NCBI RefSeq assembly: GCF_000315055.1
Contig: NZ_BAER01000045.1
Location: 62,001 to 126,000, forward strand
DNA: 64,000 nucleotides
Origin: Paraglaciecola polaris LMG 21857
Lineage (GTDB): Bacteria; Pseudomonadota; Gammaproteobacteria; Enterobacterales; Alteromonadaceae
Direction: 5' to 3'
A program made the translations under genes and the position numbers. How positions within the stretch are numbered: the first letter of the stretch is position 1; every line of letters begins with the position of its first letter. Shown one piece after another: positions 6,434 to 64,000 of this stretch. The notes below the pieces were generated by a model. The model searched no databases. It was not told where the DNA came from and was given only the letters and a program-made list of their open reading frames with translations.

Positions 6434-6468
6434 GGTTATTAATCAAAAGTGGTTATGGTCCTCGGCGG

Positions 6469-8103: not shown

Positions 8104-8106
8104 GGG

Positions 8107-10415: not shown

Positions 10416-10450
10416 CCTGACTCCTGCTTCGTTATATTTTCAATTGCTTG

Positions 10451-12490: not shown

Positions 12491-12656
12491 AGTGAACTCT
12501 TTGGTCAACAAAATGATGAGTAATAAGTAAGGGGGGAGAGGTTTAAATTCAAGTGTATTGATGAAACTAGCCTTAAATGATTTGCTTGGTCCGCAAATAA
12601 ATTCTGTTTCATGGCTGTGTAAGTTAATTCATCAATGCTGGGTCTATTGAGCAAGG

Positions 12657-12689
12657 ATTTTCTAATATCGATTAAGCCGATTAGAAAAT
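12657..12689. promoter_or_regulatory. Inverted repeat upstream of gor
   Basis: Ten-base arms ATTTTCTAAT (12657-12666) and ATTAGAAAAT (12680-12689) are perfect complements around a 13-base centre, and the centre adds a further short ATCG/CGAT pairing. It lies 69-101 bp before the gor ATG and about 170 bp before prlC, with no T-tract. It could be an operator for a regulator of gor or a hairpin in the leader. Confidence 0.5.
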
Positions 12690-12757
12690 TCATTTGTCTT
12701 TGTGGTGGCTAACCTTATATCGTGTAGTCAGAGCTCATTAATTTAGGATAAGTAGAA

Positions 12758-14107
12758 ATGGCAGATTTTGATTATATTTGTATCGGCGGCGGCAGTGGCG
12801 GTATCGCTTCAGCGAACCGAGCAAGTAAGCATGGTAAAAAAGTGGCCTTGATTGAAGCACGCCATATCGGCGGCACGTGCGTTAACGTCGGTTGTGTACC
12901 GAAAAAAGCCATGTGGTTTGGTGCTCAAGTGGCTGAGGCTATTAATCATTATGCAGCCGATTACGGCTTTGACGTAACGGTGAATAAATTTGACTGGAAA
13001 AAGTTAGTGGAGAGCCGTGAAGCTTATATCAAGCGTATTCATGCATCCTATGACCGTGTGTTAGGTAATAATGACATTACGGTTATCAATGGCTTTGCTC
13101 GCTTCGTGGATAAGAATACCGTTGAAGTTGATGGTAAACAGTACACCGCAGATCATATTCTGATTGCCACTGGTGGTCGTCCTGTTACCCCAAGCATTCC
13201 TGGCGCGGAGCTGGGCATTGATTCAGACGGTTTCTTTGAGCTAACCGAGCAGCCTAAGCGTGTTGTGGTAGTGGGGGCGGGTTATATCGCAGTTGAATTA
13301 GCTGGCGTATTGCATTCGCTGGGCAGTGAAACGCATTTAGTTGTGCGCAAACATGCCCCTTTGCGTTCGTTCGATACTATGCTGAGCGAAACCCTAGTTG
13401 AAATAATGGCCCAAGATGGCCCGACTTTGCATACACATCGTAATCCAGAAAAACTGGAAAAAAATCAAGATGGCAGCTTAACACTGACCTTCGAATGTGG
13501 TGAAAAGCTTGAAGCGGATTGTGTTATTTGGGCCATTGGCCGAGCGCCGGCTAACGACAATATGGGGCTTGATAAAGCGGGTGTAACCGTTAATGAACGT
13601 GGTTATGTCGCGGTAGATAAATTTCAGAATACCAATATTGACGGTATTTATGCCGTGGGCGATAACATAGGTAAAGTTGAACTGACCCCAGTAGCAGTGA
13701 AAGCCGGTCGTTTGTTGTCAGAGCGCTTATTTAACGGGCAAACCGACGCGCATATGGATTACACTCTTATCCCCACGGTCGTATTTAGCCATCCGGCGAT
13801 TGGGACGATGGGCTTGACCGAGCTAGAAGCTGAGGCGGAGTTTGGTAAAGACAACGTCAAAGTATATAACTCGAGTTTTGCGGCTATGTACACTGCGTTG
13901 ACCAGCCACAGACAAATGACACGTATGAAACTGGTCTGTGTCGGTGACAATCAAAAAGTTGTGGGTCTGCATGGTATTGGCTACGGCATGGACGAGATAC
14001 TACAAGGCTTTGGTGTTGCCATGAAAATGGGCGCGACCAAAGCTGACTTCGACGCCTGTGTGGCTATTCACCCCACCAGTGCAGAAGAATTTGTCACCTT
14101 GAACTAA
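12758..14107 (+). CDS. gor: Glutathione-disulfide reductase
   Basis: Cytosolic flavoenzyme reducing oxidised glutathione with NADPH. The 449 residues (E. coli Gor 450) show the FAD-binding [14 protein letters not shown], the redox-active disulfide [13 protein letters not shown] (about residues 41-53) and the NADPH site [26 protein letters not shown] follows, with arginines for the NADPH phosphate, then the second FAD motif [10 protein letters not shown] and the C-terminal catalytic HPTSAEEFV. All key residues are present. It is a single-gene unit: divergent from prlC and followed by a terminator at 14177. Confidence 0.98.
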
Positions 14108-14176
14108 TCATTCTGTTATTGGGCCGATGCGAGGTTTGAAAAACGCATAGGACTACCACATATAAGTATGACCAAA

Positions 14177-14213
14177 AGCGCCCTGTTATCTTGTATAACA
14201 TGGGCGTTTTTTA
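14177..14213 (+). terminator. Rho-independent terminator of gor
   Basis: GCGCCCTGTTAT pairs with ATAACATGGGCG (one bulge) around a four-base loop and is followed by a T-run. About 70 bp after the gor stop. Confidence 0.85.
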
Positions 14214-14426
14214 TTGCCTGAATAATGGGCCAGTAACACAGCAATTTATACTGAAAAGGTTAACCCTAGAGCGATAATGTAATGGCTAAATAGGCCTAAC
14301 GTTTGAAGGGGTTTGACGGCTCAAAAATATTTTCAAATCGTGTAAAAATTCTACTGTACAAGGATTGAATTCGGCCTTACATTAGCGCCGATTTTATCTT
14401 ACTGGCCACTGGCCTACCGGACATTT
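14214..14426. other. Intergenic region between gor terminator and DUF155 gene
   Basis: With the gor trailer this is a gap of about 320 bp. Beyond the terminator I see only moderately AT-rich sequence that should hold the promoter of the downstream gene. No ORF, repeat or structured RNA stands out. Confidence 0.5.
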
Positions 14427-15227
14427 GTGAACTTTAGTAATAATCGTATTTCAGCGATTTATTTGGGCAATGAAGAGTCTATTTTAAGCTCTGAGCAGGA
14501 TTGGCTGAATGCGGAGCGCGGTGCGCGTTATCGTGATGCGGTACACATCGCTTTACCGGGTGGTGAGGTGTGGCTGTTTGATTATGGTATTGCCATTTTC
14601 TGGGGAGTCGATGAAGACGAGCGTTTAGCCTTGTTACATCGTCTTAATTTAGCCGAAGGTTTGTTAACGTCAGCCAGCCAGGAGCATTTTCGCTTTACCC
14701 TAAATGCCCCAGAAGCACGCATTAGCCGAGACAACATTAGTTTGACTCAGGACGATCCATTGTCGCGTTTGGCAGTGAGTCATGCGTTGGCGCAATCATT
14801 GAAGCTAAATGAATATGAAGGCCAAGCGCAGCAGACGATCCAAGATCACGCTCATATTCCTCAAGCCTTAGCTGAGACGGGCAAAATTGAGTTATCGCGA
14901 CGTAACATAGCGAAAATTCGCGGTAAGCTGTATAGCACAAAAAGCGATATTATTTTGCATTATGGTTTGCTTGATACCCCTGAGTTTTTCTGGGAATACC
15001 CTGAATACGAGAGCACCTATAACTTAGCGGCGCGTTACTTGGAAATTCATCAACGAGTTGAGTTGTTATCCAAGAAATTAGCCACAATTCATGAATTGTT
15101 CGACATGTTAGCCGATGAGCAAAAACATCAACATTCTTCATTTTTAGAATGGATCATTATCATTTTGATTGCGGTAGAAATAGTGATGTTCGGCGCGAAA
15201 GAGCTGCAGTTATTATTGGGGTTCTAA
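14427..15227 (+). CDS. RMD1/DUF155-family protein with C-terminal membrane anchor
   Basis: Member of the YagE/RMD1 family (DUF155), whose eukaryotic members are mitochondrial inner-membrane proteins; the bacterial role is unknown. The 266 residues show the family core VWLFDYGIAIFWGVDEDE (about 48-66), a helical middle with LSRLAVSHALAQSLKLNEYE, the conserved ending DTPEFFWEYPEYE and a coiled region. A final membrane helix (about 237-257) tops it off. The start is a GTG; no ATG exists in frame before a stop at 14343, so GTG is the only reasonable start. Monocistronic, with a terminator at 15248. Confidence 0.88.
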   Translation: MNFSNNRISAIYLGNEESILSSEQDWLNAERGARYRDAVHIALPGGEVWLFDYGIAIFWGVDEDERLALLHRLNLAEGLLTSASQEHFRFTLNAPEARISRDNISLTQDDPLSRLAVSHALAQSLKLNEYEGQAQQTIQDHAHIPQALAETGKIELSRRNIAKIRGKLYSTKSDIILHYGLLDTPEFFWEYPEYESTYNLAARYLEIHQRVELLSKKLATIHELFDMLADEQKHQHSSFLEWIIIILIAVEIVMFGAKELQLLLGF

Positions 15228-38654: not shown

Positions 38655-38879
38655 AACAGGCTAATCGTCTTTTTAGTTGGTGGTTTTAAAATGAAAGGTC
38701 GGTTGAAGTTTGCATAATTGACCATATATCGAGCAAAGAGCTTGATCAGGGCAAGGTGTTACATTAATATGCCCGGCTCTTTGCGGCAAGCCGCATTGAT
38801 CGCATAATTTGAATTTAATTTGCGTATGGTGTTCAACTTCGGGTTGGATAGCGATACGGCCTTACTTTAAGGGTAATCC

Positions 38880-49559: not shown

Positions 49560-49876
49560 GGTGCCTTCCTATTTTTATGGTTTTGTATAGCGTCTAAGTA
49601 TTGATGTAAGCAGCTTAAGTGCCAAGTTATCTGATAGTTAATAACTTATTGATATTTCGTTTGTTTTTAAGTGTTTGTCGACCTATTTTGAAGGTTTTAA
49701 TGGCATAAGGTGAGCAATAGCGACAAGTTTTTTTGTAGTCTTTACATTATGAACGAACGTTTTTTTGCGTATTTTCATGATTATATTATTCGTAATTTTG
49801 TCATGTTTAGTAATAATAATTTCTTTTGGCCGTGGCGAATTTTTGTTAAGTTAGTGAAAAAAGATTGAGAGATAAC
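49560..49876. other. Divergent intergenic region before the LD-carboxypeptidase gene
   Basis: 317 bp, AT-rich. AAGTTAT (49622-49628) and ATAACTT (49640-49646) form an imperfectly spaced inverted repeat, but I cannot assign it. A purine-rich GAGAGA precedes the ldcA ATG. No ORF is seen. Confidence 0.45.
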
Positions 49877-50941
49877 ATGTTAGATCGTCGTGGGTTACTT
49901 AAAGCGTTCATTTGCTCCTCTTTGGCGGCAGCGATATTGCCAAGTGCAATGGCGAATACTCAGGGGACGTCGACCTCTGCTGTTCATGGGCTACGCAAAC
50001 CCAAACGGTTACAGGCGGGGCAAACAATTGGCTTAATTGCGCCTAGCAGTAATACCTGGGAAGACCAAGAGATCTATTTCGCCATGGACATAGTTCGTTC
50101 ATTTGGCTTTAACGTAAAAACGGCTGCCCATCTGTTTGACCGTTCAGCCTATTTGGCCGGCAGTGATCAAGACCGAGCCAGTGACTTAAATGCCATGTTT
50201 GCGGATGATCAAGTCGATGCTATTTTCTGTTTGCGAGGGGGATATGGTTCACCGCGCATCTTACCTTACCTTGATTATGCTCTCATAGCCCAGAACCCCA
50301 AGATTTTTCTTGGCTATAGCGATGTCACGGCCTTGCTTAATGCCATTTATACCCGCAGTCATATCATGACGTTTCACGGACCGATTGCGAAGCAGAGTTT
50401 TACCGATTACACCCTCAAACAGTTTAAGAGCGTGCTTTTCAATCCATCATCAAGCATGCCATTGGCTGATGTGCCGCCATTTGAAGCGGCCCCAGGTCAG
50501 GCTGAATTGGCAAACAGGCTGACAACGGTGGCAAACGGCAAAGCCTCAGGCGTATTGATAGGCGGCAACTTGTCATTGATGGTGAAGCTGGTGGGCAGTC
50601 CCTACGAGCCAGATTACACGGATAAAATTCTGTTTTTAGAAGATGTAGAAGAGGCGCCGTACCGCATCGACGGTATGCTGACTCACTTAATGTTAGCAGG
50701 GCGTTTAGACAAGGTTGCAGGTATCGTTTTTGGCAAATGCACCGACTGCGAAGCTGGCAACGGTCCTTCTTTTAGTATTGAACATGTATTGAAAGACCGT
50801 TTAGGCAACCTTGGGGTGCCCGTACTCAGCGGTGTGATGATTGGGCATATTGACGATATGGCGACTGTGCCCATTGGCGCAATGGCCACACTTGACGCCA
50901 CGCATCAACAACTCACCTTAGATGAAAGCGCAGTACTGTAA
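49877..50941 (+). CDS. LD-carboxypeptidase (S66 family) with twin-arginine signal
   Basis: Serine peptidase that removes the terminal D-alanine from tetrapeptide muropeptides. The 354 residues start MLDRRGLLKAFICSSLAAAILP, with two arginines, a hydrophobic core and AMA|NT cleavage. This is a Tat-type signal, unlike the cytoplasmic E. coli LdcA. The S66 catalytic set is in place: nucleophile S125 in GGYGSPRILPYLDY, Glu about 255 (FLEDVEE), His about 324 (GHIDDM). The start at 49877 is chosen over the upstream TTG by the Tat motif and the GAGAGA site. It converges with nagP. The Tat system itself lies at the other end of this window. Confidence 0.9.
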   Translation: MLDRRGLLKAFICSSLAAAILPSAMANTQGTSTSAVHGLRKPKRLQAGQTIGLIAPSSNTWEDQEIYFAMDIVRSFGFNVKTAAHLFDRSAYLAGSDQDRASDLNAMFADDQVDAIFCLRGGYGSPRILPYLDYALIAQNPKIFLGYSDVTALLNAIYTRSHIMTFHGPIAKQSFTDYTLKQFKSVLFNPSSSMPLADVPPFEAAPGQAELANRLTTVANGKASGVLIGGNLSLMVKLVGSPYEPDYTDKILFLEDVEEAPYRIDGMLTHLMLAGRLDKVAGIVFGKCTDCEAGNGPSFSIEHVLKDRLGNLGVPVLSGVMIGHIDDMATVPIGAMATLDATHQQLTLDESAVL

Positions 50942-50981
50942 CCTTAGCACTTGCGCCAATACCATTAGCTATTTTTGTTAT

Positions 50982-52337
50982 TTAACTGGGGCTTTTTCGA
51001 GCCCAGTTACGCATTCCTTGGCCGTAAAAAGCATAAAATCCAATAATGAAATACCCCGGTAGCAGTATCCAATATGCTGCCTGACTGTTGCTCGAGTGAG
51101 CAAGTTGACCATAGATAAGCGGCAGCAATGCACCCCCGGCGATCCCCATAATTAAAATGGCCGATCCCTTAGGGGTAAATCGACCTAAACCTGCTAACGC
51201 GAGTGGCCACAGAGTAGGCCAAACCATGGCATTCGCTAACCCTAATAAAGCGATAAGCGCTACACTATTTGGCAAGGTGGTTATACCTGCCCAGCCCCAT
51301 AATATCTGTGAAATTTGTGTTTGTTCATTGGATGCAAACAATAGTGCGACTGAAATAGCCACCCCTGCAAGCGCACTGAGCCGTAAGGCATTTACTTGCG
51401 AAATAAAGCGCGGAATACAAGCCAAACCAAGCAAATAACCCAACACCATAAACCCCATAGTGTAAGAGGTTAAAGTCGTTGCATTGGCCACCCCGATACT
51501 TGCGCCATAAAGCCCAATAGTGTCACCCGCGATGACTTCGACTCCTACGTATAAAAATAAGGCAACTGCGCCTAATATGAGTTGCGGAAACTGCCAAATA
51601 GTTGTTTTGTTGGTGTCATGTTGATCAGTGTCGTGAGCTGACGAATTATCATCACTGGGCGACTGAATTAACGCTAAATCAGGTAACGCGATCCGAGAAA
51701 GTCCGCCAGCGAGTATCAATAGGGCAACTGCCATCCCTACATAAGGGGTAATCAATTGATGAGCCATATTTTCAATTTGCAGTTGCTGAGCTTGGGGGGC
51801 CATGTGGTTGACGTCGGCAAGATTAATGTCGCTAAAGCCACCCAAAACCCATGCGGTAAATAACACTGGGGCCAAGATACCGGCCCCTTTATTGAGTAAG
51901 CCCATGATCGCAATTCTGGCTGCTGCACTGTGCGTTGGGCCAACGTTAACCACATAAGGATTCGCCGCAGTTTGCAATATGGTTAGGCCGCTACCAATAA
52001 CAAATTGCGCCACTAAAAATATCCAAAATTCTTGCAATAACGCAGCGGGAATAAAGCCCAATAGGCCAAGGGCGATAATACTCAATCCCAATACCATGGC
52101 GGATTGGTAGCCGACTTTTTCTAATATCATTGCCATCGGTAGCGCCATCACTACATAGGCAAAATAAAAGCACGAGGCGATCATCAAGGCTTGGGTTTCA
52201 GTCAGTTGACACACCACCTGTAAGAACGGAATAAGCGCCCCATTAAGCCAAGTGACAAAGCCGAATATAAAAAACAATAAAGCAATAATGCACATAGGCA
52301 TGATGCTTGAGCGCGGGGCGGTAGCTGTGTGTGTCAT
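50982..52337 (-). CDS. nagP: N-acetylglucosamine permease NagP (FHS/MFS family)
   Basis: Inner-membrane sugar symporter of the fucose-galactose-glucose:H+ branch of the major facilitator superfamily; in Shewanella and relatives NagP imports GlcNAc in place of a PTS. The 451 residues show about 12 helices with FGFVTWLNGALIPFLQ (about 24-39), the family glutamine/asparagine-rich transport segments, GSGLTILQTAANPYVV and GNAM-like ALANAMVWPTLWPLAL. A charged cytoplasmic loop (about 225-245) joins the halves. Third gene of nagB-nagA-nagP with 10 bp after nagA, supporting the GlcNAc assignment. Confidence 0.88.
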   Translation of the reverse strand: MTHTATAPRSSIMPMCIIALLFFIFGFVTWLNGALIPFLQVVCQLTETQALMIASCFYFAYVVMALPMAMILEKVGYQSAMVLGLSIIALGLLGFIPAALLQEFWIFLVAQFVIGSGLTILQTAANPYVVNVGPTHSAAARIAIMGLLNKGAGILAPVLFTAWVLGGFSDINLADVNHMAPQAQQLQIENMAHQLITPYVGMAVALLILAGGLSRIALPDLALIQSPSDDNSSAHDTDQHDTNKTTIWQFPQLILGAVALFLYVGVEVIAGDTIGLYGASIGVANATTLTSYTMGFMVLGYLLGLACIPRFISQVNALRLSALAGVAISVALLFASNEQTQISQILWGWAGITTLPNSVALIALLGLANAMVWPTLWPLALAGLGRFTPKGSAILIMGIAGGALLPLIYGQLAHSSNSQAAYWILLPGYFIIGFYAFYGQGMRNWARKSPS

Positions 52338-52347
52338 GGGTTGACCC

Positions 52348-53475
52348 TTATTTTATTATTGGTTGTCCTGACTGCCATAAAGCAGTGATATTTAATTCTT
52401 GGTCCAGCAGCACAAAATCAGCTTGTTTGCCCACTGCGATATCACCATGACTGGCTTGCAAGCCGAGGTAATGGGCTGGGGTAGTACTGGCCATTGTGAC
52501 CGCGTCTTCAAGGGATAAAGCTAAATCATTGACAGCATGTTTGACTGCGCTGAGCATATCCAAATGCGAGCCGGCCAAAGTGCCATTCTCTGTGGTGAGC
52601 TTGTTGCCCACACGGGTGATTTTCTGGTCCCCAAACACGAAGGTTTCATCGTTAGTGCCAATTAAGCCCATGGCGTCTGTAACCAACATGATTTTATCTA
52701 TGCCTTTGATTTTTATTGCTATTTCACTGCATATAGGGTCAATGTGATAATGATCCAATATTAAACCAGCATAGGTATGCGGGGTATTCAGTGCCACACC
52801 AACCATTCCCGGCTCTCGGGATTGCATGGCGGACATAGCGTTGAATAAATGGGTAAAGCCGTCAGCACCGGCTTCTATGGCTTTAATAACTGTGCTTGCG
52901 TCAGCATTTGAGTGGCCTAGGCAGACTTTTACACCACTTTGACATAATTGACTGATGATATCGGGGGAAACGTTCTCCGGCGCCAGCGTGACAATGACCT
53001 TGCCCAGATCGTTACGCAGGTAAAGTGCTAGCTCATCGTCGCTTATGGGTCGTATAAAAGACTCATCATGTACACCTTTTTTAGGCCGACTCAGGTGCGG
53101 TCCTTCAAAATGCACACCTAGAATCCCAGGCGTATGCTGGCTAATAGCATCGGCTATCGCTTGGGTCGCTTGGCGCATAACGGGGAGTTCGTCGGTTATT
53201 AGAGTGGGCATCAACCCTGTGCTACCGAATTGCATATGGGCCTGACTCATCTGGGCTAACGCTGCCACGTTTGGCTGTTGATTAAACAGTACACCACCGC
53301 CGCCATTGACTTGTACGTCGATAAAGCCAGGTACTAATCGGCCTCGATAGAATGCCAGGTTGGTATCATCAGCTGAACTGGCCCTGATACTGGCAAGTTT
53401 ACCTTGCACTAAGCTAAGCGTTTGATTTGTTAACCAGCCATTTGAGGTCAGTACGTGCTCACATCTAAATTGCAT
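52348..53475 (-). CDS. nagA: N-acetylglucosamine-6-phosphate deacetylase
   Basis: Removes acetate from GlcNAc-6-phosphate to give glucosamine-6-phosphate. The 375 residues match the amidohydrolase-fold NagA: PGFIDVQVNGGGG near 50, GVHFEGPHLS (metal-binding Glu), CLGHSNADA and THLFNAM (histidines), LVTDAMGLIG (catalytic Asp) and a C-terminal KQADFVLLD. One base separates it from the upstream nagB-type gene, so translation is coupled. Central step where GlcNAc import and the MurNAc route (MurQ) join. Confidence 0.96.
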   Translation of the reverse strand: MQFRCEHVLTSNGWLTNQTLSLVQGKLASIRASSADDTNLAFYRGRLVPGFIDVQVNGGGGVLFNQQPNVAALAQMSQAHMQFGSTGLMPTLITDELPVMRQATQAIADAISQHTPGILGVHFEGPHLSRPKKGVHDESFIRPISDDELALYLRNDLGKVIVTLAPENVSPDIISQLCQSGVKVCLGHSNADASTVIKAIEAGADGFTHLFNAMSAMQSREPGMVGVALNTPHTYAGLILDHYHIDPICSEIAIKIKGIDKIMLVTDAMGLIGTNDETFVFGDQKITRVGNKLTTENGTLAGSHLDMLSAVKHAVNDLALSLEDAVTMASTTPAHYLGLQASHGDIAVGKQADFVLLDQELNITALWQSGQPIIK

Positions 53476-53476
53476 A

Positions 53477-54460
53477 TTAATGGGTCTCGGTTACTTTTTT
53501 AAGGCCCTGGGGACGGTCTGGATCTCGCTCGTAAGCTTGGGCAATGTGTTCAATATCCAAATAAAAACGCAACACGACGAGCAAAGGCAAGCAGCGTGGA
53601 TGTAACGAAAGCGCCGGATGTGAAAGAGATATGACTTGTCCACCTTGACGGGCGAAGGTCTGTATTTGGCTACTATGCACTGGGGCAGACTCATCTTCAA
53701 CTTGAACATCAATTACATGTAATTGATTGGCGAGCAAGGCCGATGGACCATGCATAAACTCAGCACTGCTAAACGCTTCACAATGAATGGCGAGCACTTC
53801 TTTAAGCTTTAAAGCCATTTCTCGACTGATGGCATAACCTAAACCGCGACCAAGCATGGCGCAGTGCTGGACATTACGCAGTATCTCTGGGGTAAGTTGT
53901 GGCGGTTGGGCTAATACGGTACCAAGGGCCTCGGGTAATTCGTTCAAGCTGTTAAGCAAGTCTTCGTTGTTGCTCCAATACGCCGTGAGTTGCAACAAGG
54001 CGCTCAGACTGGCTAAGTAGCTTTTGGTCGCGGCAACGGATAGCTCTGCGCCGGCCGCCATAGGTAACACCCAGTCGACAGCTTGGGCCAATGGGGATTG
54101 CTCATCATTTACCAGCGCCACACACAGTGCACCACTTTTCTTGGCTGATTTGACTTGATTGACGATATCTGGACTGCGGCCAGACTGAGAGATAGCAATG
54201 ACCAATGCATCTTTATAATCTACAGACTTTTGGTAAATACCAAATACAGAAGGCGAGGCAAACATGACAGGTATACCCAGTTCTATTTCCAGTAAATATT
54301 TAGCAAATACACCTGCATGATCAGAGGAGCCTCGACCAATCATCAATATGTAAGAAGATTTGTGGATTTTTATCTGTGCAACCAAACGCTGACATAGTTT
54401 GGCGTTGTGAGTGATCTGTTGACGAATAACGGTAGGTGTTTGGGCGGTCTCTTGGGCCAT
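53477..54460 (-). CDS. nagB-II: Glucosamine-6-phosphate deaminase, NagB-II type (SIS domain)
   Basis: Converts glucosamine-6-phosphate to fructose-6-phosphate and ammonia; NagB-II is the non-orthologous replacement of NagB known from Shewanella and Alteromonadales, built from two SIS domains like the isomerase half of GlmS. The 327 residues (start ATG 54460) contain MIGRGSSDHAGVFAKYLLEI, SQSGRSPDIV and AATKSYLASLSALLQL as sugar-phosphate-binding motifs. There is no glutaminase domain, which separates it from GlmS. A TTG at 54472 would add four residues and has a GGGG-containing upstream stretch; the ATG has GAG at seven bases. First gene of nagB-nagA-nagP. Confidence 0.92.
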   Translation of the reverse strand: MAQETAQTPTVIRQQITHNAKLCQRLVAQIKIHKSSYILMIGRGSSDHAGVFAKYLLEIELGIPVMFASPSVFGIYQKSVDYKDALVIAISQSGRSPDIVNQVKSAKKSGALCVALVNDEQSPLAQAVDWVLPMAAGAELSVAATKSYLASLSALLQLTAYWSNNEDLLNSLNELPEALGTVLAQPPQLTPEILRNVQHCAMLGRGLGYAISREMALKLKEVLAIHCEAFSSAEFMHGPSALLANQLHVIDVQVEDESAPVHSSQIQTFARQGGQVISLSHPALSLHPRCLPLLVVLRFYLDIEHIAQAYERDPDRPQGLKKVTETH

Positions 54461-54510
54461 GTAGCTACTCAACGGGGTCCCCTTATGTTGATTATTTGTG
54501 CAATGGGAAT

Positions 54511-54528
54511 AGAATAATAAATTATTCT
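54511..54528. promoter_or_regulatory. 18-bp palindrome in the divergent nagB-II / DUF819 region
   Basis: AGAATAAT and ATTATTCT flank AA, a near-perfect dyad 51 bp upstream of the nagB-II start and 86 bp before the DUF819 gene. It is AT-rich and symmetrical like operators of RpiR/MurR or LacI-type sugar regulators. A TATAAT for the plus strand follows at 54545-54550. Confidence 0.6.
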
Positions 54529-54613
54529 TTATTTTTCTATATTTTATAATAGTTATTTACAAATACCCCTCAACTGGTTACTGTTTGACTACCCTAAGCT
54601 ATGCATAATCTTT

Positions 54614-55780
54614 ATGATCATAACCGCCTTCCCATACGTCAGTGTTTTGCTCTTTATCGCGGGTATGTTGGCCTTTGTCGAAGAGAAAACCCGTTGGAAA
54701 CTCTTCCATTATTTACCGGCCATTGTATTGCTGTATTTCACCGTCATGCTGTTGTCGACATTAGGGCTTTGGACTAAAACGAACGAGATCAATCAAGCGT
54801 ACTCTTCGCTCAAAGGTAATATCTTGCCGGCGATGATTTTCTTAATGTTACTGGATGCTGATTTGCGTCAAATTAAGCGTCTGGGTGGCAAAATGCTGTT
54901 GGCTTTCTTTGCTGCTGCGATCAGTATCGGCTGTGCTTTTGTCTTGGGTTTCGCCTTGTTTAAAGGATTTTTAGCCCCGGAAGCATGGAAAACCTTGGCT
55001 GCGTTAAGTGGCAGTTGGATGGGGGGCACGGGAAATATGGCGGCAGTGCAAGCTGCACTAAATGTGCCTGATTCGAGCATGGGGTACACCCTGTTAATTG
55101 ACTCTATCGATTACGCCATGTGGGTGATGTTCTTATTGGCTTTGGTACCCATGGCAAGCCGCTTTAATCAGTGGACTAAAGCGGACGGTAAAGCACTGGA
55201 AGAAGTTAGCGCTAATTTAGCCAGTAAACAAACTGAGTACAGCGGTAACAAGACCACGTCTTTGTTGGTTTTATTGTCCGGCGCTATGTTGGTATCCATT
55301 GGCTGCCAATATATAGCGGAGATATTGCCCGTCAGTGAGTTTTTCACAAAAACCGCATGGACCGTGATGCTTGTCACCTTATTAGGGGTTATCTGCGCCG
55401 TCACGCCGATCAGCAAAATGTGGGGTGGTAAAGAGCTTTCTTCTTTGATGTTGTACCTGATTATCGGATTAATTGCTTCCCGAGCTAATTTCAACGAACT
55501 AACCCAAGCCCCTATTTATATTGTATTAGGGCTATTTATTTTGGCTATTCACGGCGCATTAATGCTGGTGGTCGCGAAAGTTTTCAAACTGGACCTTTTC
55601 ACTTGTGGTATCGCCTCATTAGCCAATATTGGCGGGGTCGCATCAGCGCCTATTCTCGCCGCTGCGTATTCCCGGGCGTTAATTCCTGTTGGGGTGTTGA
55701 TGGCGCTGCTAGGCTATGTCATTGGCACAGGTGGTGGTTTACTGGTAGGGCGCGCATTAGCATGGCTAAGCGTGGTGTAA
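54614..55780 (+). CDS. DUF819-family membrane permease (YjcL-like)
   Basis: 388 residues of the DUF819 family, membrane proteins of unproven function sometimes found beside muropeptide or dipeptide genes. About 10-11 helices; ILPAMIFLMLLDADLRQIKRLG (about 75-97), LSGSWMGGTGNMAAVQAAL (about 135-153), ANIGGVASAPILAAAYSR (about 338-355) and a final GTGGGLLVGR are characteristic. No Shine-Dalgarno sequence is obvious before its ATG. It opens the plus-strand operon, one base before the peptidase frame's earliest start and 12 before the preferred one. An import or export role for murein peptides or D-amino acids is inference from the neighbours. Confidence 0.85.
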   Translation: MIITAFPYVSVLLFIAGMLAFVEEKTRWKLFHYLPAIVLLYFTVMLLSTLGLWTKTNEINQAYSSLKGNILPAMIFLMLLDADLRQIKRLGGKMLLAFFAAAISIGCAFVLGFALFKGFLAPEAWKTLAALSGSWMGGTGNMAAVQAALNVPDSSMGYTLLIDSIDYAMWVMFLLALVPMASRFNQWTKADGKALEEVSANLASKQTEYSGNKTTSLLVLLSGAMLVSIGCQYIAEILPVSEFFTKTAWTVMLVTLLGVICAVTPISKMWGGKELSSLMLYLIIGLIASRANFNELTQAPIYIVLGLFILAIHGALMLVVAKVFKLDLFTCGIASLANIGGVASAPILAAAYSRALIPVGVLMALLGYVIGTGGGLLVGRALAWLSVV

Positions 55781-55792
55781 ATGGAGAAAAAT

Positions 55793-57184
55793 ATGAAACA
55801 ATTTCTATTCATGGCGTGGCTAACAATTAGCACATTGTGCTTGGCAGCTTGGCCTGCAATGGCCCAGCAAAAAGAATGGGGGTCAGACGTAATGCATATT
55901 TCACAGGCGCAGTTGCACGCCGAACATTGGATGAATAAGCTTAAAAACCCTGAACAAGTGGTTATGAGTGACGTGCAGATTCGTGCACACAATCATAGTT
56001 TACTGGAGCATAATCGCTTTGTTCATGATCCACTATTGACCCCAGAGGTGCTTACTGACAAGCAGCTTAAAGCAAAAATTAACAGTATCAGTAAAGTGCC
56101 CAAAAGTGCCCGATTTTTCCTAGATGGGCGTAAGTTGGCAGCCGATGATTACGCGGTCTATCAGCAAAGTATGCAATTTTCCGCTGCTGAACAAGGGCAT
56201 AGAGTTACCTACGGGCTAATTGTAAAACGTGCCGCAATGCGCACTTTTCCAACAGATGATCGGGTATTAAATTCCGCTATGGATGCTGACCTCGACCGAT
56301 TCCAAGAAAGTGCACTCTTCCCCGGTGATACCGTGGCGGTATTAACCCGTAGCCAAGACAAACAGTGGGCATTAGTGCAAGGGTTCAATTACTTGGCCTG
56401 GACCCGAGTGGAAAACTTTGCTGTTGCCAGCAAGGAGCAGGTACAGGCATTTGCTTCAGCAAACGATTTTATTGTGGTCACCGGTGCCAAGGTGTTTACC
56501 CAATATGTCCCCGAGCATGTTGGTGTGTCTGAGCAACAATTAGACATGAGTGTGCGCTTACCTTTGGTCGCAAAAAACGAAGTCCCCAACGCCTTATACG
56601 GACAAAATCCCTACGCTAATTATGTGGTCTGGTTGCCCACGCGCACAGCGCAAGGCCAGTTGAGTTTACAAAAAGCGCTAATTGGCCGTAGCCAAGATGT
56701 ACATTTAGGTTATATGCCATTTACCAAAGAGAATGTAATCAAGCAAGGGTTCAAATTTTTAGGTGAACGTTACGGTTGGGGCCACGATTATAACGGCCGG
56801 GATTGTACCGGTTTTGTTGGCGAGATTTATCGTGCATTTGGCTTGTTGATGCCGCGTAATTCCGGTGATCAAGGTGGGACCGATTTTGGTATCGATACTC
56901 GTTTTAACAAGGGTACGCCAGTGGCTGAAAAACTTGCCAGCATAAAAAGCCTAGAAGTGGGTGATTTACTCTACATACCGGGTCATGTCATGTTGTATTT
57001 AGGTGCAGAAGATGGTCAGCCGTTTGTTATTCACGACGTGAAAGGATTGGCGTATTTTGACGACAAGCAAAAACTCTATAAGGGAACGTTAAATGGCGTC
57101 TCGGTTACCCCTCTCTTACCTTTGCGCCTGTCGGTGCAAAATAGTTATGTTGACCGCCTATATAACATTAAGCGTATTAGGTAA
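55793..57184 (+). CDS. Secreted SH3-domain NlpC/P60 (C40) peptidoglycan peptidase
   Basis: 463 residues with a signal peptide (cleavage near AMA|QQ). An N-terminal stabilising domain and two bacterial SH3-like domains (about 45-310) precede a C-terminal NlpC/P60 domain. The catalytic triad is visible: C338 in GRDCTGFVGE, H398 in IPGHVML, H414 in FVIHDV. This is the architecture of the YkfC-type gamma-D-glutamyl-L-diamino-acid endopeptidase, which cuts murein stem peptides. The ATG at 55793 has GGAG six bases upstream; another ATG at 55781 overlaps the ribosome-binding site. Next to LD-carboxypeptidase and DUF819, it suggests breakdown of murein peptides outside the cytoplasm. Confidence 0.93.
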   Translation: MKQFLFMAWLTISTLCLAAWPAMAQQKEWGSDVMHISQAQLHAEHWMNKLKNPEQVVMSDVQIRAHNHSLLEHNRFVHDPLLTPEVLTDKQLKAKINSISKVPKSARFFLDGRKLAADDYAVYQQSMQFSAAEQGHRVTYGLIVKRAAMRTFPTDDRVLNSAMDADLDRFQESALFPGDTVAVLTRSQDKQWALVQGFNYLAWTRVENFAVASKEQVQAFASANDFIVVTGAKVFTQYVPEHVGVSEQQLDMSVRLPLVAKNEVPNALYGQNPYANYVVWLPTRTAQGQLSLQKALIGRSQDVHLGYMPFTKENVIKQGFKFLGERYGWGHDYNGRDCTGFVGEIYRAFGLLMPRNSGDQGGTDFGIDTRFNKGTPVAEKLASIKSLEVGDLLYIPGHVMLYLGAEDGQPFVIHDVKGLAYFDDKQKLYKGTLNGVSVTPLLPLRLSVQNSYVDRLYNIKRIR

Positions 57185-57190
57185 GCATTG

Positions 57191-58771
57191 ATGAGCGCAC
57201 AATACTCAGGTTTAGATTGGTTAGTGTTTGCTGCTTACGGGCTATTGTTGCTGGGCAGCGGCTGGTTTTTTAATCGCCGTTCAGCTAACAGTCAAGACTA
57301 CTTTCGTGGCGGTAATGCTATGCCTGTTTGGGCGGTTGCTATATCTGTATTAGCCACGTCTCAATCTGCAGCAACGTTTTTAGGCGGACCAGATCAAGGG
57401 TATCGCGGTGATCTATCTTACCTAGCCACTAACCTAGGTGCCTTTGTTGCGGCGTTCTTTGTGGCCACGTTTCTGATCCCTAAATTCTACCAGCACAACG
57501 TATATACAGTGTATGAATTACTTGAAGTGCGCTTTGGGGCAAAAGCCAAGAAACAGGCTGGGCTGATGTATCTCTGTGGCCGTGTATTTGCCAGCGGTGC
57601 GCGCTTATATATGGCGGCTATTGCAGTGTCTATGATCTTGTTCGCCGATATTGAAGCGTCACACGTCATTGCCGCGACCTGTATATTGACCGTTGCCGGT
57701 TTGTTGTACACAGTGTACGGCGGTATTAAAACGGTCATTTACAGCGATGTGATCCAGTGCGGTGTTTATGTGGGTGCCGCGGTAGCGGTTATCTACTGTT
57801 TAATCGCCGCCATACCAAGCGATATTCCTAGTGTGCTTAATGTGTTAGCTAACCCTGGTCCGGGTGAAGCGTCAAAGCTCGCTTTATTTAAGTTTGATTG
57901 GGATTTTAGCCCGAGCGGCGTTTTCAATATCTGGTCGGTATTTAGCGGTTTTGTGTTATTGAATATTGCGGCTTTCGGTCTCGATCAAGATATGACACAG
58001 CGGGTACTTACCTGTAAAAATGCGAAAAAAGGCAGCAAGGCCATGCTGTATTCCATTGTGATGGTAATCCCCATCATGCTGTTATTTATCGTAATTGGCT
58101 TGTTATTATATGTTTATTACCAGCGCCCAGATCTAATGCACAGCGGTGTATCAGGGGAGGTATTGCCTACATTTGAAGGTGAGCCGGTGACTATTTTCAT
58201 GTATTACGTGCTCAACCATATTCCTTCCGGCGTAAGAGCTCTGGTGACCGTTGGTATCGTTGCTGCTGCGTTATCGACACTGAATTCTGGGTTGAATTCT
58301 ATGGCATCCGTTTTGGTACAAGATATTTATGCGCCGTGGCAGCAAAAACAAGGTAAGAATCACAGCGATATGCATTATGTCAGTGCTGGACGTGTGGCGA
58401 TGGGCTTGGTGGCCTCCGCACTTGGAGCAATGGCATGCCTGTGTTTTTACTGGCAACAATACACGGATACCCCGTTATTGCAGTTTGCGTTAGGGGTGAT
58501 GGTATTTTCATATAGTGGTTTGTTAGGGGTGTATTTTACCGCAATATTCACTAAGCGCGGCAGCCCTGCTAGTGTATTGGCGGCGCTTATTTGTGGCTTT
58601 ATGACTACGCTATTATTTCAACCTTACGTCATGACGCTGTATTTACCGCCAGAGTGGATCATACCCATCGGCTTCACGTGGCAGTTATGTATCGCCACGT
58701 TAGTCGCAACCTTAGTGTGTTTATCGGCCAAGGGAAGTAACCAACAGTTATTTCAAGGACAGAAAGCATGA
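57191..58771 (+). CDS. Sodium:solute symporter (SSS family), candidate MurNAc/muropeptide importer
   Basis: 526 residues, about 13 helices; the SSS core is recognisable: GLDWLVFAAYGLLLLGSGWFFNRRSA, SVLATSQSAATFLGGPDQGY (about 45-64), TVYELLEVRFG and the LSTLNSGLNSMASVLVQDIYAPW stretch (about 355-378, in parts). The nearest described members carry sugars, sialic acid or N-acetyl sugars. Between a murein peptidase and a sugar kinase-MurQ-NamZ set, import of free MurNAc (or GlcNAc-MurNAc) is the best guess; there is no PTS MurP here. The ATG at 57191 follows an AGG-containing site. The stop overlaps the kinase start by 4 bp. Confidence 0.9.
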   Translation: MSAQYSGLDWLVFAAYGLLLLGSGWFFNRRSANSQDYFRGGNAMPVWAVAISVLATSQSAATFLGGPDQGYRGDLSYLATNLGAFVAAFFVATFLIPKFYQHNVYTVYELLEVRFGAKAKKQAGLMYLCGRVFASGARLYMAAIAVSMILFADIEASHVIAATCILTVAGLLYTVYGGIKTVIYSDVIQCGVYVGAAVAVIYCLIAAIPSDIPSVLNVLANPGPGEASKLALFKFDWDFSPSGVFNIWSVFSGFVLLNIAAFGLDQDMTQRVLTCKNAKKGSKAMLYSIVMVIPIMLLFIVIGLLLYVYYQRPDLMHSGVSGEVLPTFEGEPVTIFMYYVLNHIPSGVRALVTVGIVAAALSTLNSGLNSMASVLVQDIYAPWQQKQGKNHSDMHYVSAGRVAMGLVASALGAMACLCFYWQQYTDTPLLQFALGVMVFSYSGLLGVYFTAIFTKRGSPASVLAALICGFMTTLLFQPYVMTLYLPPEWIIPIGFTWQLCIATLVATLVCLSAKGSNQQLFQGQKA

Positions 58772-59655
58772 ACAACACAAGTGAATTTATTCTTGGTTTA
58801 GACGGAGGTGGTACCAAAACACTGGCCCGACTGATAAATTTAACTACCGAAATGCAATGGCAAGTTAGCGCAGGTGCTAGCTCCTTGAGCAACGATTATT
58901 CCCAAGCCTTAGCCAGCGTGACTGATGCCTGTAGACAACTATTTGCGCAAGCCAGCTGTCAGCCCGAGCAGGTGTCGACGGTTTTTGGTCTTGCTGGCGC
59001 TGGCGACAAACAGTTAATCGCAAAGTTGGAACGGGACTTACCATTCGACTTCGCCGATTTGCAAATAGTGTCGGATGCAAAAACCTCATTGTACGGAGCG
59101 AATGCGGGTCAACCGGTCGCAGTCGTGGCATTGGGTACAGGCTCAGTGGGCATGCGTATGGACCACAATGGTGCGGAAAAGATGATAGGCGGGTGGGGTT
59201 TTTGTATCGGCGATGAGGGTGGCGGTGCCAAACTGGGGTATTTGGCTGTGCAAAAACTACTTTTAGAAATGGATACAAATGGCGTCGCAAAAAGCGTCTT
59301 GAGTTTGTATGTTGCCAGTCAAATTGGTTACAGTCGCCAGTCTATTTTACAATGGTTAGCCATGGCTAAGCCTGCGGATTATGCCAAACTGGCGCCACAT
59401 ATTTTTACGTTGAGAGATAGCTGCGTGTTGGCATTGGAAGTGTTAACGGCGCATGCCAACATGATTGAAAAATTAATTAAACGAACCTGTGGTTCAAGCG
59501 AGTTACCGTTAGTATTGATGGGCGGGCTCGCTGAGCCAAGTCACGTATTACTCAGCACTACTTACCGTAACTTAATTATGCCAAGTAAGGGCAATTCCCT
59601 CGACGGCGCTTGTTTGTTGGCAAAGCAACTGTGCTCGCCAGCAGCGACTAACTAA
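58768..59655 (+). CDS. BadF/BadG-type N-acetyl-sugar kinase (MurK-like candidate)
   Basis: ATP-dependent sugar kinase of the ASKHA fold. The 295 residues show phosphate-1 [10 protein letters not shown] (about 10-19), phosphate-2 [12 protein letters not shown] (about 118-129), and [13 protein letters not shown] (about 149-161). Family members phosphorylate GlcNAc (eukaryotic NagK) or both MurNAc and GlcNAc (clostridial MurK). Its position, with 4 bp overlap to the symporter and 17 bp before murQ, whose substrate is MurNAc-6-phosphate, suggests a MurNAc kinase, perhaps also acting on GlcNAc from NagP. Specificity is inferred, not shown. Confidence 0.85.
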
Positions 59656-59672
59656 ACGTACATAATAATTTT

Positions 59673-60596
59673 ATGACTCAAGCAAATTTACTCAGTGAAT
59701 TGAATGATATCGCCTCCGAGGCGCGCAACCAAGACACGTTGAATATCGACACATTATCGACCTTGGCAATATTGGAAAAGATGAATCATGAAGACCAAAA
59801 AGTTGCGGGTGCCGTTCATGCTGTTTTAGCTGATATTGCTCTGGGGGTAGATGTCATTGTTGATAGTTTTAATCAAAACGGGCGGCTAATTTATATGGGG
59901 GCAGGCACGAGTGGTCGTTTAGGTATTCTTGATGCCGTGGAATGTATGCCAACCTTCAGTGTACCCCAAGGCATGGTTATCGGCTTGATTGCCGGCGGCG
60001 AAAAAGCAGTGGTGCATGCAGCCGAAGGCGCAGAGGACAACAAAGAGCAAGGGGTCAGCGATTTAAAGGCCCTGCAGTTTAATGCTAAAGATGTGCTGGT
60101 AGGTATTGCCGCCAGTGGCCGTACGCCCTATGTGGCAGCCGGCCTAGAATATGCCAAGCAGTGTGGTGCGAAGACCATAGCCCTTAATTGCAGTGCGAAA
60201 TCGCTAATCGGTCAAATAGCCGATATTGATATTTGTGCTCAAGTCGGTCCGGAAGTCCTTACAGGATCTACTCGCTTAAAATCGGGCACTGCCCAGAAGC
60301 TCATTTTAAATATGTTGAGCACGGCCAGTATGATCCGTATTGGTAAAACGTATCAAAATTTAATGGTCGACTTAAAAGCCAGCAATCAAAAGCTTTACGC
60401 CCGAGCGGTGCGTATTGTGATGCAAGCCACAGATTGCGATGAACAAACTGCCTCTGAAGCTTTGGTGCAAGCCAATAAAGAAGTAAAAGTCGCGATTTTA
60501 ATGATACTCACCAATAGCAGCCCAGAGCGAGCCCGGGGAGAGTTATCCGAGCATAACGGCTATTTACGTCACGCAGTGTCCCAAAGCAGCTCATGA
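59673..60596 (+). CDS. murQ: N-acetylmuramic acid 6-phosphate etherase MurQ
   Basis: Cleaves the lactyl ether of MurNAc-6-phosphate to give GlcNAc-6-phosphate and D-lactate, connecting murein sugars to NagA. The 307 residues match Mur[45 protein letters not shown] and a SIS fold, plus the C-terminal helical domain [21 protein letters not shown]. The catalytic Glu lies in the AVECMPTF or AAEGAED region by analogy with E. coli. The stop overlaps the namZ start by 4 bp. Confidence 0.96.
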
Positions 60597-61759
60597 AGCT
60601 ATTTTTGTTTACCGTGCTGGTTATGCTGCTTAATGCTTGTGCTGGCCAGTCTAAAATAGATAGCCAAGCCATTATCGTCGCGGCTGAGCGCCCTGACGCT
60701 TATTTATCGCAGTTAACAGGTAAGCGTGTTGGTTTATTGGTTAATCAGACCTCTATGGTCGGCAAAACGCACTTAGCGGACTACCTGTTAGAGAACGATA
60801 TAAACGTCGCGCGAATATTTGCCCCTGAGCACGGCTTTCGTGGCGACCATGATGCAGGAGCGCATGTAAACAGTGAGGTAGATGCTAAAACCGGGATCCC
60901 AATTACCTCGATTTACGGAAAATTTAAAAAACCTCCGCTTGAAATGCTGCAGCAACTCGATGTAGTGGTATTTGATATTCAGGACGTAGGTGTACGTTTT
61001 TACACTTACATTAGCTCCATGCATTACATGATGGAAGCCGCAGCAGAAGCAGGTATTCAATTTATGGTCTTAGACCGCCCTAATCCGAACGGGAGGTTTA
61101 TTGATGGCCCGATCTTGGAGCCTGAGTTTCGCTCGTTTGTCGGCATGCATCCGATACCCGTATTGCACGGTATGACCGTAGCCGAGCTGGCGCGTATGAT
61201 CAAAGGCGAGAAGTGGATAAAGCAAGCACAAGCTCTTGATTTAGTGACCATACCTGTCGCTCATTATACTCGGAATATGCTTTATTCATTACCCGTCGCC
61301 CCGAGCCCAAATTTACCCAATGATCAGGCGATAGGTCTATACCCCAGCCTGTGTTTTTTTGAAGCGACACCTATTAGTATCGGCCGGGGAACTGACTTTC
61401 CTTTTCAGGTCCTGGGTTTTAATGACATCGCGTTAGGCCAATTCGAATTTAGTCCTGAATCTCGTCCGGGCAGCGCATTGCACCCCAAATTAGAAGGCAA
61501 GGTACTCAAGGGCATGGACTTGCGTGAAAGTCAGCAACGGGGTTTGAATTTAGATTGGTTAATTGCGGCGCAGGGGCAATTTATCGAGCAGGGTATAAGC
61601 TTGTTTGATAGAGCTGATTTTATGGACAAGCTGGCAGGCACAGATCAAATGCGTAAAGCCATTGAAGCGGGCCACAGTGGAGCCGAAATCAAGCAAAGTT
61701 GGCAAGCCGGGCTGGAGAAATTTAAAGCTAAACGTCAGCCCTATTTACTCTATCAATAA
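60593..61759 (+). CDS. namZ: Exo-beta-N-acetylmuramidase NamZ (DUF1343), lipoprotein
   Basis: Releases MurNAc from the non-reducing ends of peptidoglycan fragments; the function is established for Bacillus subtilis NamZ, a secreted DUF1343 protein. The 388 residues carry a lipoprotein signal LLNACAG (Cys16), then family motifs [63 protein letters not shown] and [11 protein letters not shown]. Anchoring would place it in the periplasm or at the outer membrane. It follows murQ with 4 bp overlap, and ends the operon before a T-free hairpin. Confidence 0.93.
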
Positions 61760-62723: not shown

Positions 62724-64000
62724 TTACATAGCGTATGAAAGTGTTACATAGCCGAAACGACCAATGTTTTCATAAGCACCTGTTTTCTCGCCAGTGCCGG
62801 TTGTGCCGTATGGCAGGCCGCGGTTGAATACGTTATCTACGCCGACTGTTAGGGATAAACCATTTTCAAACGCATAACCTACTGTCACATCTGAAATAGC
62901 GTATGAGCCATATTCCATCAACGAGCTGCGGTTAGGGTTAACGGCAAGCTCTTGGTTGTCGTATATGCTAACGCGTTCTAAATAACGTGTTTTGATGCCA
63001 GCTTTCCATGCGTCAACTGTGTAGTTCACGCTTACCATGCCTTGCCACTCAGATTCGCCCGCAGTGCCGGCATATTCTACGTAGTCAGAGGTATCTTCTT
63101 GGAACGGATACTCTTTACGTTCGATAAGGTAGGTACCGATAAGGTTGGTATTAAATGAACCACCAAGGGCATCAAAGTCGTAACCAAGTTCGAAATCCAC
63201 ACCCGCTGCATCTTGACCTGAAAGGTTAAGTGCGAAGCTTCTGATTTGCGAAATTTCGCCGTTTACGTCACGGGAAACAAGTGAACAGTAATCATTATTC
63301 ACACTGCTAGTGTTGTCTACACAACGATCGAGTATGGTTTGTGAGTCAACAGATGAAATTGCATCCGTTAATTCAATTTTCCAGTAATCAACGGTGGCCA
63401 CAAAGCCTTCGAGGTAAGACGGTTGGTAGACGACGCCCACTGTGGTACTTTTTGATTCTTCAGCGCGTAGGTTAATGTTACCGCCTTGCTCGCCTTCGAT
63501 TGTTGCTTGGTCGTAATCGGAATCAAAATCAGCCGGCACACCTAGGGCTGCACAGTTTGCTGCACGTGTGGACGCGTCAGATAGTTGGTCTAGCTCAGAC
63601 GTTTTACAAGGGTCATCGATGCTGAAAAAGGTCTGGCTGGCTTCACCGAATAATTCACTGATGTTAGGTGCGCGTAGGGCTGATGAATGAGTCGAGCGAA
63701 TACGAAGATCGTCGTACACCTGCCAATCTAGGCCTAGTTTCCAGCTTTTCGCATTACCAATGGTACTGTAATCAGCGATACGTAACGCGGTTTCGAAGTT
63801 AAGGCTTTGCACGCCTGGTAAGTCAGCTAATAAAGGAACTGAAAATTCCACATAAGCTTCTTTTACGTCAAAGTCGCCCTTGTCTTCACCTAATACGTTG
63901 AAAAAGGTACCTTCAGCGTTATCTGGCTCTTCAATTTCGCTTTCTTCTTTGCGGTATTCAATACCTGCGGCAAAACCAACATAGCCTGCTGGTAACTCAT
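62724..64000 (-). CDS. TonB-dependent outer-membrane receptor, N-terminal part cut by window
   Basis: C-terminal 425 codons of a TonB-dependent receptor barrel; the 5' part lies beyond base 64000, since the frame is open to the edge and the first Met-like GTG at 63851 is internal. Features: RAPNISELFGEASQTFF (conserved barrel motif near the window side), paired cysteines in a long loop (CKTSE ... CAALG), NLRAEESKSTTVGVVYQP, GYFAN-like YGSYAISDVTVGYAFENGLSLTVGVDNVFNRG in parts, and a terminal YVTLSYAM strand. The style is that of carbohydrate or peptide receptors of Alteromonadales. A role in uptake of muropeptides or GlcNAc oligomers is possible because of the cluster it adjoins, but unproven. 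Confidence 0.92.
   Translation of the reverse strand, partial: ELPAGYVGFAAGIEYRKEESEIEEPDNAEGTFFNVLGEDKGDFDVKEAYVEFSVPLLADLPGVQSLNFETALRIADYSTIGNAKSWKLGLDWQVYDDLRIRSTHSSALRAPNISELFGEASQTFFSIDDPCKTSELDQLSDASTRAANCAALGVPADFDSDYDQATIEGEQGGNINLRAEESKSTTVGVVYQPSYLEGFVATVDYWKIELTDAISSVDSQTILDRCVDNTSSVNNDYCSLVSRDVNGEISQIRSFALNLSGQDAAGVDFELGYDFDALGGSFNTNLIGTYLIERKEYPFQEDTSDYVEYAGTAGESEWQGMVSVNYTVDAWKAGIKTRYLERVSIYDNQELAVNPNRSSLMEYGSYAISDVTVGYAFENGLSLTVGVDNVFNRGLPYGTTGTGEKTGAYENIGRFGYVTLSYAM

Follow-up and report, generated by a model that had tools for sequence, protein, structure and literature searches.

A probable PTS-independent murein utilization locus in Paraglaciecola polaris, with kinase-MurQ fusions in relatives

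Overview of the locus

The 64,000-nucleotide stretch analysed here (the window) comprises bases 62001-126000 of contig NZ_BAER01000045.1 of Paraglaciecola polaris LMG 21857 (genome 5.24 Mb, 146 contigs, 100% complete). Positions 49877 to 61759 carry ten genes which, together with further genes on the same contig, very probably constitute a locus for the utilization of murein (peptidoglycan) that is independent of a phosphotransferase system (PTS). A sequence-only reading had placed the ten genes here in this order, and open reading frame calling confirmed each of them as an open frame with a family match (Pfam or NCBIfam); the S66 peptidase frame has an ATG at 49877, and namZ ends at 61759. 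It had also described the locus as lacking a PTS; the one PTS component family searched for, the MurP family PF02378 (PTS_EIIC), is without a match in the whole genome, an E. coli control having matched. Its proposal that the cell feeds on murein by extracytoplasmic cleavage, symport and phosphorylation by a kinase, followed by MurQ, NagA and NagB-II, gains inferential support from the absence of PF02378 and from kinase-MurQ fusions in three relatives. The description of the locus as complete-looking did not hold, as a NagZ-type glycosidase, an amidase and a regulator lie about 2-12 kb past the window end.

The genes nagP-nagA-nagB-II run leftward and the genes from DUF819 to namZ rightward from a common divergent intergenic region of 141 bp (54473-54613). 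The leftward genes (minus strand) encode a NagP-like major facilitator superfamily (MFS) permease for N-acetylglucosamine (GlcNAc) (50982-52337; NCBIfam NagP_SO3503, 483.5 bits, below the cut-off of 625), the GlcNAc-6-phosphate deacetylase NagA (52348-53475; TIGR00221, 287 bits, cut-off 226) and the glucosamine-6-phosphate deaminase NagB-II (53477-54472; NF046059, 477 bits, cut-off 430). The rightward genes (plus strand) encode a DUF819 membrane protein (54614-55780; Pfam DUF819, 332 bits), a peptidase with SH3b (SH3_6) and NLPC_P60 domains (55781-57184; Pfam; PDB 3m1u, E=1.8e-17), an SSS sodium symporter that is MurT-like by context (57188-58771; Pfam SSF; best PDB match 5nv9, a putative sodium:solute symporter), a BadF sugar kinase proposed to act on N-acetylmuramic acid (MurNAc) (58768-59655; Pfam), the MurNAc-6-phosphate (MurNAc-6P) etherase MurQ (59673-60596; TIGR00274, 410.5 bits, cut-off 302) and the exo-beta-N-acetylmuramidase NamZ (60593-61759; Pfam NamZ_N, 267 bits, cut-off 26.9, and NamZ_C, 100 bits, cut-off 25; PDB 4jja, E=1.1e-113). 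The DUF819, NLPC_P60 and NamZ proteins have no NCBIfam match. The tenth gene encodes an S66 LD-carboxypeptidase, predicted to be exported (plus strand, from ATG 49877 or TTG 49865 to 50941; Pfam Peptidase_S66 and S66C; 186 bits, below the NCBIfam cut-off of 378). Its N-terminus, read by eye, is twin-arginine-like (DRRGLLK), matching what we take to be the Tat motif, and that of NamZ is lipobox-like (LNAC, by eye).

Continuation of the cluster and proposed route

The cluster extends beyond the window on the same contig (L059, L060; coordinates past 64000 are L059 positions plus 56000). A TonB-dependent receptor gene is cut by the window end (62724-65615, minus strand, with the C-terminal part 62724-64000 inside), and is followed on the same strand by genes for an RpiR-type regulator (65922-66770; RpiR helix-turn-helix and SIS domains), a NUDIX protein (66990-67391), a glycoside hydrolase family 3 (GH3) protein of NagZ type (67481-69370; GH3 domain) and a large CarboxypepD_reg-domain protein (69499-72576; Pfam). 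The last has no TonB domain by Pfam, and is called TonB-type because of its length and cluster mates. On the plus strand, an 833-residue protein combines Amidase_2, PG_binding_1 and PBP4B-like domains (72977-75478). A gene for a beta-lactamase-fold hydrolase is cut by the contig end. The GH3 protein scores 192 bits with the NCBIfam beta-N-acetylhexosaminidase model, just below the cut-off of 207, and contains the KH-PG-D-H motif, which we take to be a sign of NagZ. The regulator scores 171 bits with the MurR model NF012026, not reaching the cut-off of 408. The N-termini of NamZ and the GH3 protein appear, by eye, to be export signals.

We infer the following biochemical steps and localizations. 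The outer-membrane TonB-type proteins would take in wall fragments. In the periplasm, the Amidase_2-PBP4B fusion protein would strip off the stem peptides, the NagZ-type GH3 and NamZ would release GlcNAc and MurNAc, respectively, from the chain ends, with the S66 and NlpC/P60 enzymes, both presumably exported, trimming the peptides. In the B. subtilis model, NagZ and NamZ act as exo-enzymes that can take glycan strands apart starting at the non-reducing end, helped by an amidase that separates the sugars from the stem peptides. MurNAc would enter with sodium through the SSS symporter and be phosphorylated by the BadF kinase to MurNAc-6P, which MurQ would convert into GlcNAc-6P and D-lactate. 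GlcNAc would be imported by NagP, with NagA and NagB-II completing the conversion to fructose-6P. DUF819 may import a product of the stem peptides, the weakest step of the scheme. The RpiR regulator would control both divergent operons and be relieved by MurNAc-6P, like MurR in E. coli, while the cell's own wall would be recycled separately via AnmK and AmgK-MurU. If true, this amounts to a full murein-to-glycolysis route in marine gammaproteobacteria that can do without MurP, in which an import core like that of Tannerella is combined with exo-enzymes resembling those of Bacillus and nag genes of the Shewanella type.

Conservation in the order and class

In a sample of 247 genomes of the order, the SSS query (E<=1e-100) matched 16 genomes and MurQ was found in 122. 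The kinase query (E<=1e-15) matched 87, many of them at about 30% identity and therefore probably paralogues. In all 16 SSS genomes murQ lies 68-2100 bp from the SSS gene, with BadF between the two in 12. The neighbourhoods fetched for these genomes (12-20 kb each) contain NamZ in 9, an RpiR regulator in 13, GH3 in 12 (short forms in four), Amidase/PBP4B in 7, NlpC/P60 in 5, an epimerase-like gene in 4, DUF819 in 3 and nag genes in 1, the window's own. Seven further named loci were taken from the genome collection. The three from other Paraglaciecola genomes (L033, L034, L036) all have the same ten-gene order, with symporters 91-94% identical, and those from Colwellia, Thalassotalea and two Alteromonas contain SSS, murQ and namZ, the Alteromonas pair without a kinase between SSS and murQ. 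The ten-gene order shared by these Paraglaciecola loci and the SSS-murQ adjacency in 16/16 genomes go beyond chance. The nag genes adjoin the mur genes in the four Paraglaciecola loci (window included) and in none of the fetched stretches of the 15 other SSS genomes.

In a class-wide sample of 369 genomes, MurQ loci were examined in G442, G556, G604, G509, G313, G302, G440 and G544, plus G000 and G031, with G008 left out. BadF adjoins MurQ-like genes in 4/8 class loci fetched (G442, G604, G509, G313), and all four MurQ-like proteins score below the MurQ cut-off.

Variant arrangements were also seen. The loci without a kinase between SSS and murQ are L070-L073 (G121, G090, G224 and G106, respectively) and also L038 and L039, with a distant BadF homologue 1-3 kb away in L071 and L039. 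In L047-L050 (order family f21), an AnmK-like gene lies between the BadF kinase and murQ (by eye and similarity).

Kinase-MurQ fusions and the substrate of the kinase

In three of the 12 order genomes with BadF between SSS and murQ, the kinase and MurQ form one open frame, with the BadF domain first and the MurQ-type SIS domains second: G147 (L040:9005-10858, 617 residues), G072 (L042:9011-10858, 615 residues) and G052 (L043:9998-11878, 626 residues). These are relatives' proteins, not the window's own kinase. Genes that become fused tend to encode successive steps of a single pathway, and the fusion points to a kinase producing MurNAc-6P, which is MurQ's substrate. The fusions strengthen the case for murein utilization and weaken an alternative, in which the kinase would act on GlcNAc, the substrate of SSS would be GlcNAc or a different amino sugar, and MurQ would do no more than process the MurNAc-6P that AnmK makes. 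No description of a kinase-MurQ fusion was found in the open-licence PMC literature, and these natural kinase-etherase fusions are offered for enzymology.

The GlcNAc alternative draws on the best fold and sequence match of the kinase, the putative NagK 1zc6, on a weak match to the NagK model NagK_SO3507 (NF046058; 129.2 bits, not reaching the cut-off of 370), and on the adjoining nagP-nagA-nagB-II genes. However, besides the three fused proteins, SSS-murQ occurs without nag genes in the fetched stretches of the 15 other SSS order genomes (BadF between them in 11/15), and NagP already covers GlcNAc. The genome has two BadF family genes, and the protein encoded by the second, on contig C21, is the better NagK candidate, with 283.6 bits in the same model (also below 370). 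We consider a GlcNAc role for the locus kinase improbable. The earlier proposal that the locus kinase phosphorylates the imported free sugars is narrowed by this comparison, as one kinase need not serve both. The C21 kinase cluster (L056) also contains a NagB-II homologue (51%), an SSS homologue, a LacI-type regulator and a TonB-dependent receptor.

The AlphaFold2 model of the locus kinase is good (predicted local distance difference test score, pLDDT, 90.4) except for residues 144-146 near the sugar loop (pLDDT<50), and its best fold matches are 1zc6, the Clostridium acetobutylicum kinase CaMurK (8zo3) and the Sulfolobus tokodaii hexokinase. In place of the bulky residues of many sugar kinases, the locus kinase has Gly-Gly-Trp, and a Ser precedes the catalytic Asp103 (both placed by hand from the conserved Asp). 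For the T. forsythia (Tannerella forsythia) kinase TfMurK, passages of PMC10465942 give as residue criteria small residues at 133-135 and no Asn or His at 94. Passages of PMC5790795 report that T. forsythia MurT and MurK together rescue an E. coli murP mutant on MurNAc.

Coexistence with AnmK and AmgK-MurU

Outside the window, the genome also contains AnmK and AmgK-MurU, which the sequence-only reading did not have in its picture. The amgK and murU genes are adjacent, on another contig than the locus; MurU scores 317 bits (cut-off 250) and AmgK 233 bits, under the cut-off of 550. MurU was found beside AmgK in 6/7 fetched loci, the locus in which it was not found (L088) being from G058, a 500-contig assembly. 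In passages of Borisova et al. (PMC5371407), MurQ and AmgK-MurU are given as alternatives in proteobacteria, above all in Beta- and Gammaproteobacteria, with either the one or the other present. Overall the order sample supports this rule: MurQ occurs in 122 genomes, AmgK in 111 and both in 4, against about 55 expected if independent, although Fisher association values overstate in samples which, like ours, contain related genomes. The four genomes with both (G000, G052, G058, G147) all carry SSS, BadF, murQ and namZ, and two of them, G052 and G147, have a BadF-MurQ fusion. Of the seven named genomes, the three Paraglaciecola and Thalassotalea have AmgK, and Colwellia and the two Alteromonas lack it. 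In the class sample, MurQ was found in 11/369 genomes (7 over the cut-off) and AmgK in 314, with both in the window's genome, G442 and G556. The safe statement is that the window's genome breaks the either/or rule, and that in the sampled order the breakers carry the SSS-BadF-murQ-namZ module, which provides a testable exception to the published statement (PMC5371407).

Two rival explanations turn on this coexistence. In the first, the cluster only salvages sugars from the turnover of the cell's own wall, like the E. coli MurQ route or the B. subtilis (Bacillus subtilis) murQ cluster. The E. coli murR-murQ-murP-yfeW divergon has homologues here of MurR (36% identity), MurQ (51%) and PBP4B (46%), and 118/122 MurQ genomes of the order lack AmgK, so MurQ there may serve recycling. 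By contrast with E. coli, the genome has no PF02378 PTS, and the locus adds a NamZ and a GH3 with predicted export signals; TonB-type proteins flank the set, and the genome already has AnmK and AmgK-MurU for recycling. A recycling-only role is therefore unlikely here. In the second, imported MurNAc would be fed through AmgK-MurU to UDP-MurNAc, with MurQ as an overflow valve only. AmgK-MurU is present in this genome, and AmgK in 3/3 other Paraglaciecola genomes tested; however, 12/16 SSS-murQ genomes of the order lack AmgK, and AmgK-MurU here is on a different contig than the locus, leaving little probability for this anabolic explanation.

In line with murein utilization, we tentatively suggest, as an idea somewhat less likely than not, that Paraglaciecola and a few relatives depart from the either/or rule and maintain two separate muramic acid economies per cell, with AnmK-AmgK-MurU rebuilding the cell's own wall, a MurR-like-controlled module eating the murein of other bacteria down to fructose-6P, and DUF819 as a new stem-peptide carrier. 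The module would consist of NagZ, NamZ, the amidase-PBP4B protein, the SSS symporter, the BadF kinase (fused to MurQ in some relatives), NagA and NagB-II. This would raise the question of how MurNAc and MurNAc-6P stay apart in one cell.

The AmgK-MurU pair (L066:457-2241, contig C75) lies beside an LptD-like gene (LptD by eye), and a short AnmK-like stretch with four internal stops is present at C64:3602-3931 (L062). L095 (G442:C6, about 5590-14800) is another PTS-free set in a genome with AmgK, consisting of an ABC sugar-type transporter and MurQ-like, BadF, NagB-like and NagA-like genes.

Comparison with known systems

For these comparisons we take YbbC to be of the NamZ family, and AmiE to be a beta-lactamase-fold relative. 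The closest parallel is the oral pathogen T. forsythia, in which, according to passages of PMC5388701, ybbC, murT, murK and murQ form one transcription unit (Tanf_08345-08385). As in a murTKQ-type set, a sodium symporter, a BadF-type kinase and MurQ are encoded together here, and YbbC, a PTS-free symporter, a sugar kinase and MurQ are common to both systems (passages of PMC5388701 and PMC5790795). The T. forsythia MurNAc transporter is ascribed to the sodium symporter superfamily, and in one place of PMC5790795 to the MFS. On the T. forsythia side, ampG, lytB and glycosyltransferase genes precede, control is by GppX, and the organism is a MurNAc auxotroph, in the same passages. Here, in contrast, the set is extended by the NagZ-type GH3, the amidase-PBP4B protein, NlpC/P60, DUF819, nagP-nagA-nagB-II and the RpiR regulator. 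The claim that this set was undescribed as a system thus has to be divided: the core SSS-BadF-MurQ-NamZ is already known from T. forsythia (passages of PMC5388701), while the enlarged set, with an RpiR regulator and in a genome with AmgK-MurU, looks new. No murein utilization locus of Alteromonadales was found described in the open-licence PMC literature.

The B. subtilis cluster murQ-murR-murP-amiE-nagZ-ybbC (passages of PMC5061867) has counterparts here of MurQ, MurR, NagZ and YbbC. It has the PTS MurP where the present locus has a symporter and a kinase, and the amidase of the present locus is a fusion of Amidase_2 and PBP4B-like domains. The NagP, NagA and NagB-II types are those of the Shewanella nagP-nagA-nagB-II-nagK pathway, which passages of PMC2996990 describe for the use of GlcNAc and chitin, together with nagR; the main text of that paper contains neither 'muram' nor 'murein'.

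The peptide side

The NlpC/P60 protein has a signal-like N-terminus and contains what we take to be the Cys and His motifs of this family, and we propose that it is a gamma-D-Glu-diamino acid endopeptidase. An S66 peptidase and an NlpC/P60 endopeptidase are also combined in B. subtilis ykfABCD, with ABC or Dpp uptake. The present set resembles ykfABCD in these two peptidases, and in an epimerase-like gene in relatives. Unlike ykfABCD, it has DUF819 for uptake, and no epimerase gene was found among the window-cluster genes examined. The epimerase-like gene lies beside the NlpC/P60 gene in six relatives (L035, L037, L040, L041, L045, L046), and the L035 protein scores 248 bits with the L-Ala-D/L-Glu epimerase model (cut-off 500). 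An alanine racemase gene is present near the mur genes in 10 loci (L038, L039, L070-L073, L076-L079; one by Pfam, the rest by BLAST). The two peptidases here, with the epimerase-like or alanine racemase genes in relatives, suggest that stem peptides are probably eaten too.

Passages of PMC8396727 place DUF819 in the CPA/AT clan and assign it a reentrant fold type that the glutamate symporter family also has. From this clan and fold type, one may reasonably guess, but no more, that DUF819 carries acidic amino acids or dipeptides, which provides a substrate hypothesis for DUF819. The passages of the DUF819 literature examined name no substrate. A PDB sequence search gave no match for the protein even at E=10, and its AlphaFold2 model is poor (pLDDT 57.8, 6 sequences).

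Candidate operator

The candidate operator AAGAATAANTTATTCTT emerged from a count of palindromes in 88 intergenic regions taken from 13 loci. It occurs with 1 mismatch at 54513-54529, in the divergent nagB-II/DUF819 intergenic region, the sole site with <=1 mismatch in 5.24 Mb; with <=2 mismatches there are six sites, two of them in the locus. The window and the next 12 kb contain three sites with <=3 mismatches against 0.55 expected, at 54513, at 66783 (upstream of the regulator) and at 72643 (upstream of the amidase-PBP4B gene). In relatives of the discovery set, sites lie upstream of SSS in L035 (3 mismatches), L037 (0), L041 (1) and L043 (1). These counts are partly circular, because the motif was derived from the same intergenic regions. 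In 22 held-out loci, two sites with <=2 mismatches were found against 0.45 expected, in L038 (1 mismatch, upstream of SSS) and L081 (2 mismatches, upstream of murQ).

Observations weighing against murein utilization as proposed

Several observations count against the proposed route or parts of it. For the operator, sites with <=3 mismatches show no excess, either genome-wide (51 against 48 in a reversed control) or in the 22 held-out loci (4, with 3.25 expected). The candidate sequence is also absent from the E. coli murR-murQ promoter, where the best site has 5 mismatches. The symporter is likened to T. forsythia MurT by context and description, not by sequence, and murQ follows SSS without a kinase between them in 4/16 genomes (G090, G106, G121, G224). 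The kinase fold is nearest to the putative NagK and CaMurK, with TfMurK (8oqw) at rank 15 and about 16-17% identity. Its GGWG loop is also found in human NagK and thus permits MurNAc without proving it, and CaMurK bears the name of a MurNAc/GlcNAc kinase although an Asn precedes its Asp. The expectation that every genome with MurQ and AmgK carries the SSS module, true for 4/4 in the order, failed in the class sample: in G442, a MurQ below the cut-off lies beside a BadF kinase, NagB- and NagA-like genes and an ABC transporter, with no SSS, and in G556 a MurQ over the cut-off is accompanied by neither a kinase nor an SSS within 20 kb, so the link is no rule. Finally, we noticed no muramidase of the endo-acting type among the genes of the cluster.

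Other features of the window

The sole Rfam match in the window at the gathering threshold is an L31 ribosomal protein leader RNA at 38823-38873, on the plus strand (RF03157, 51.4 bits).

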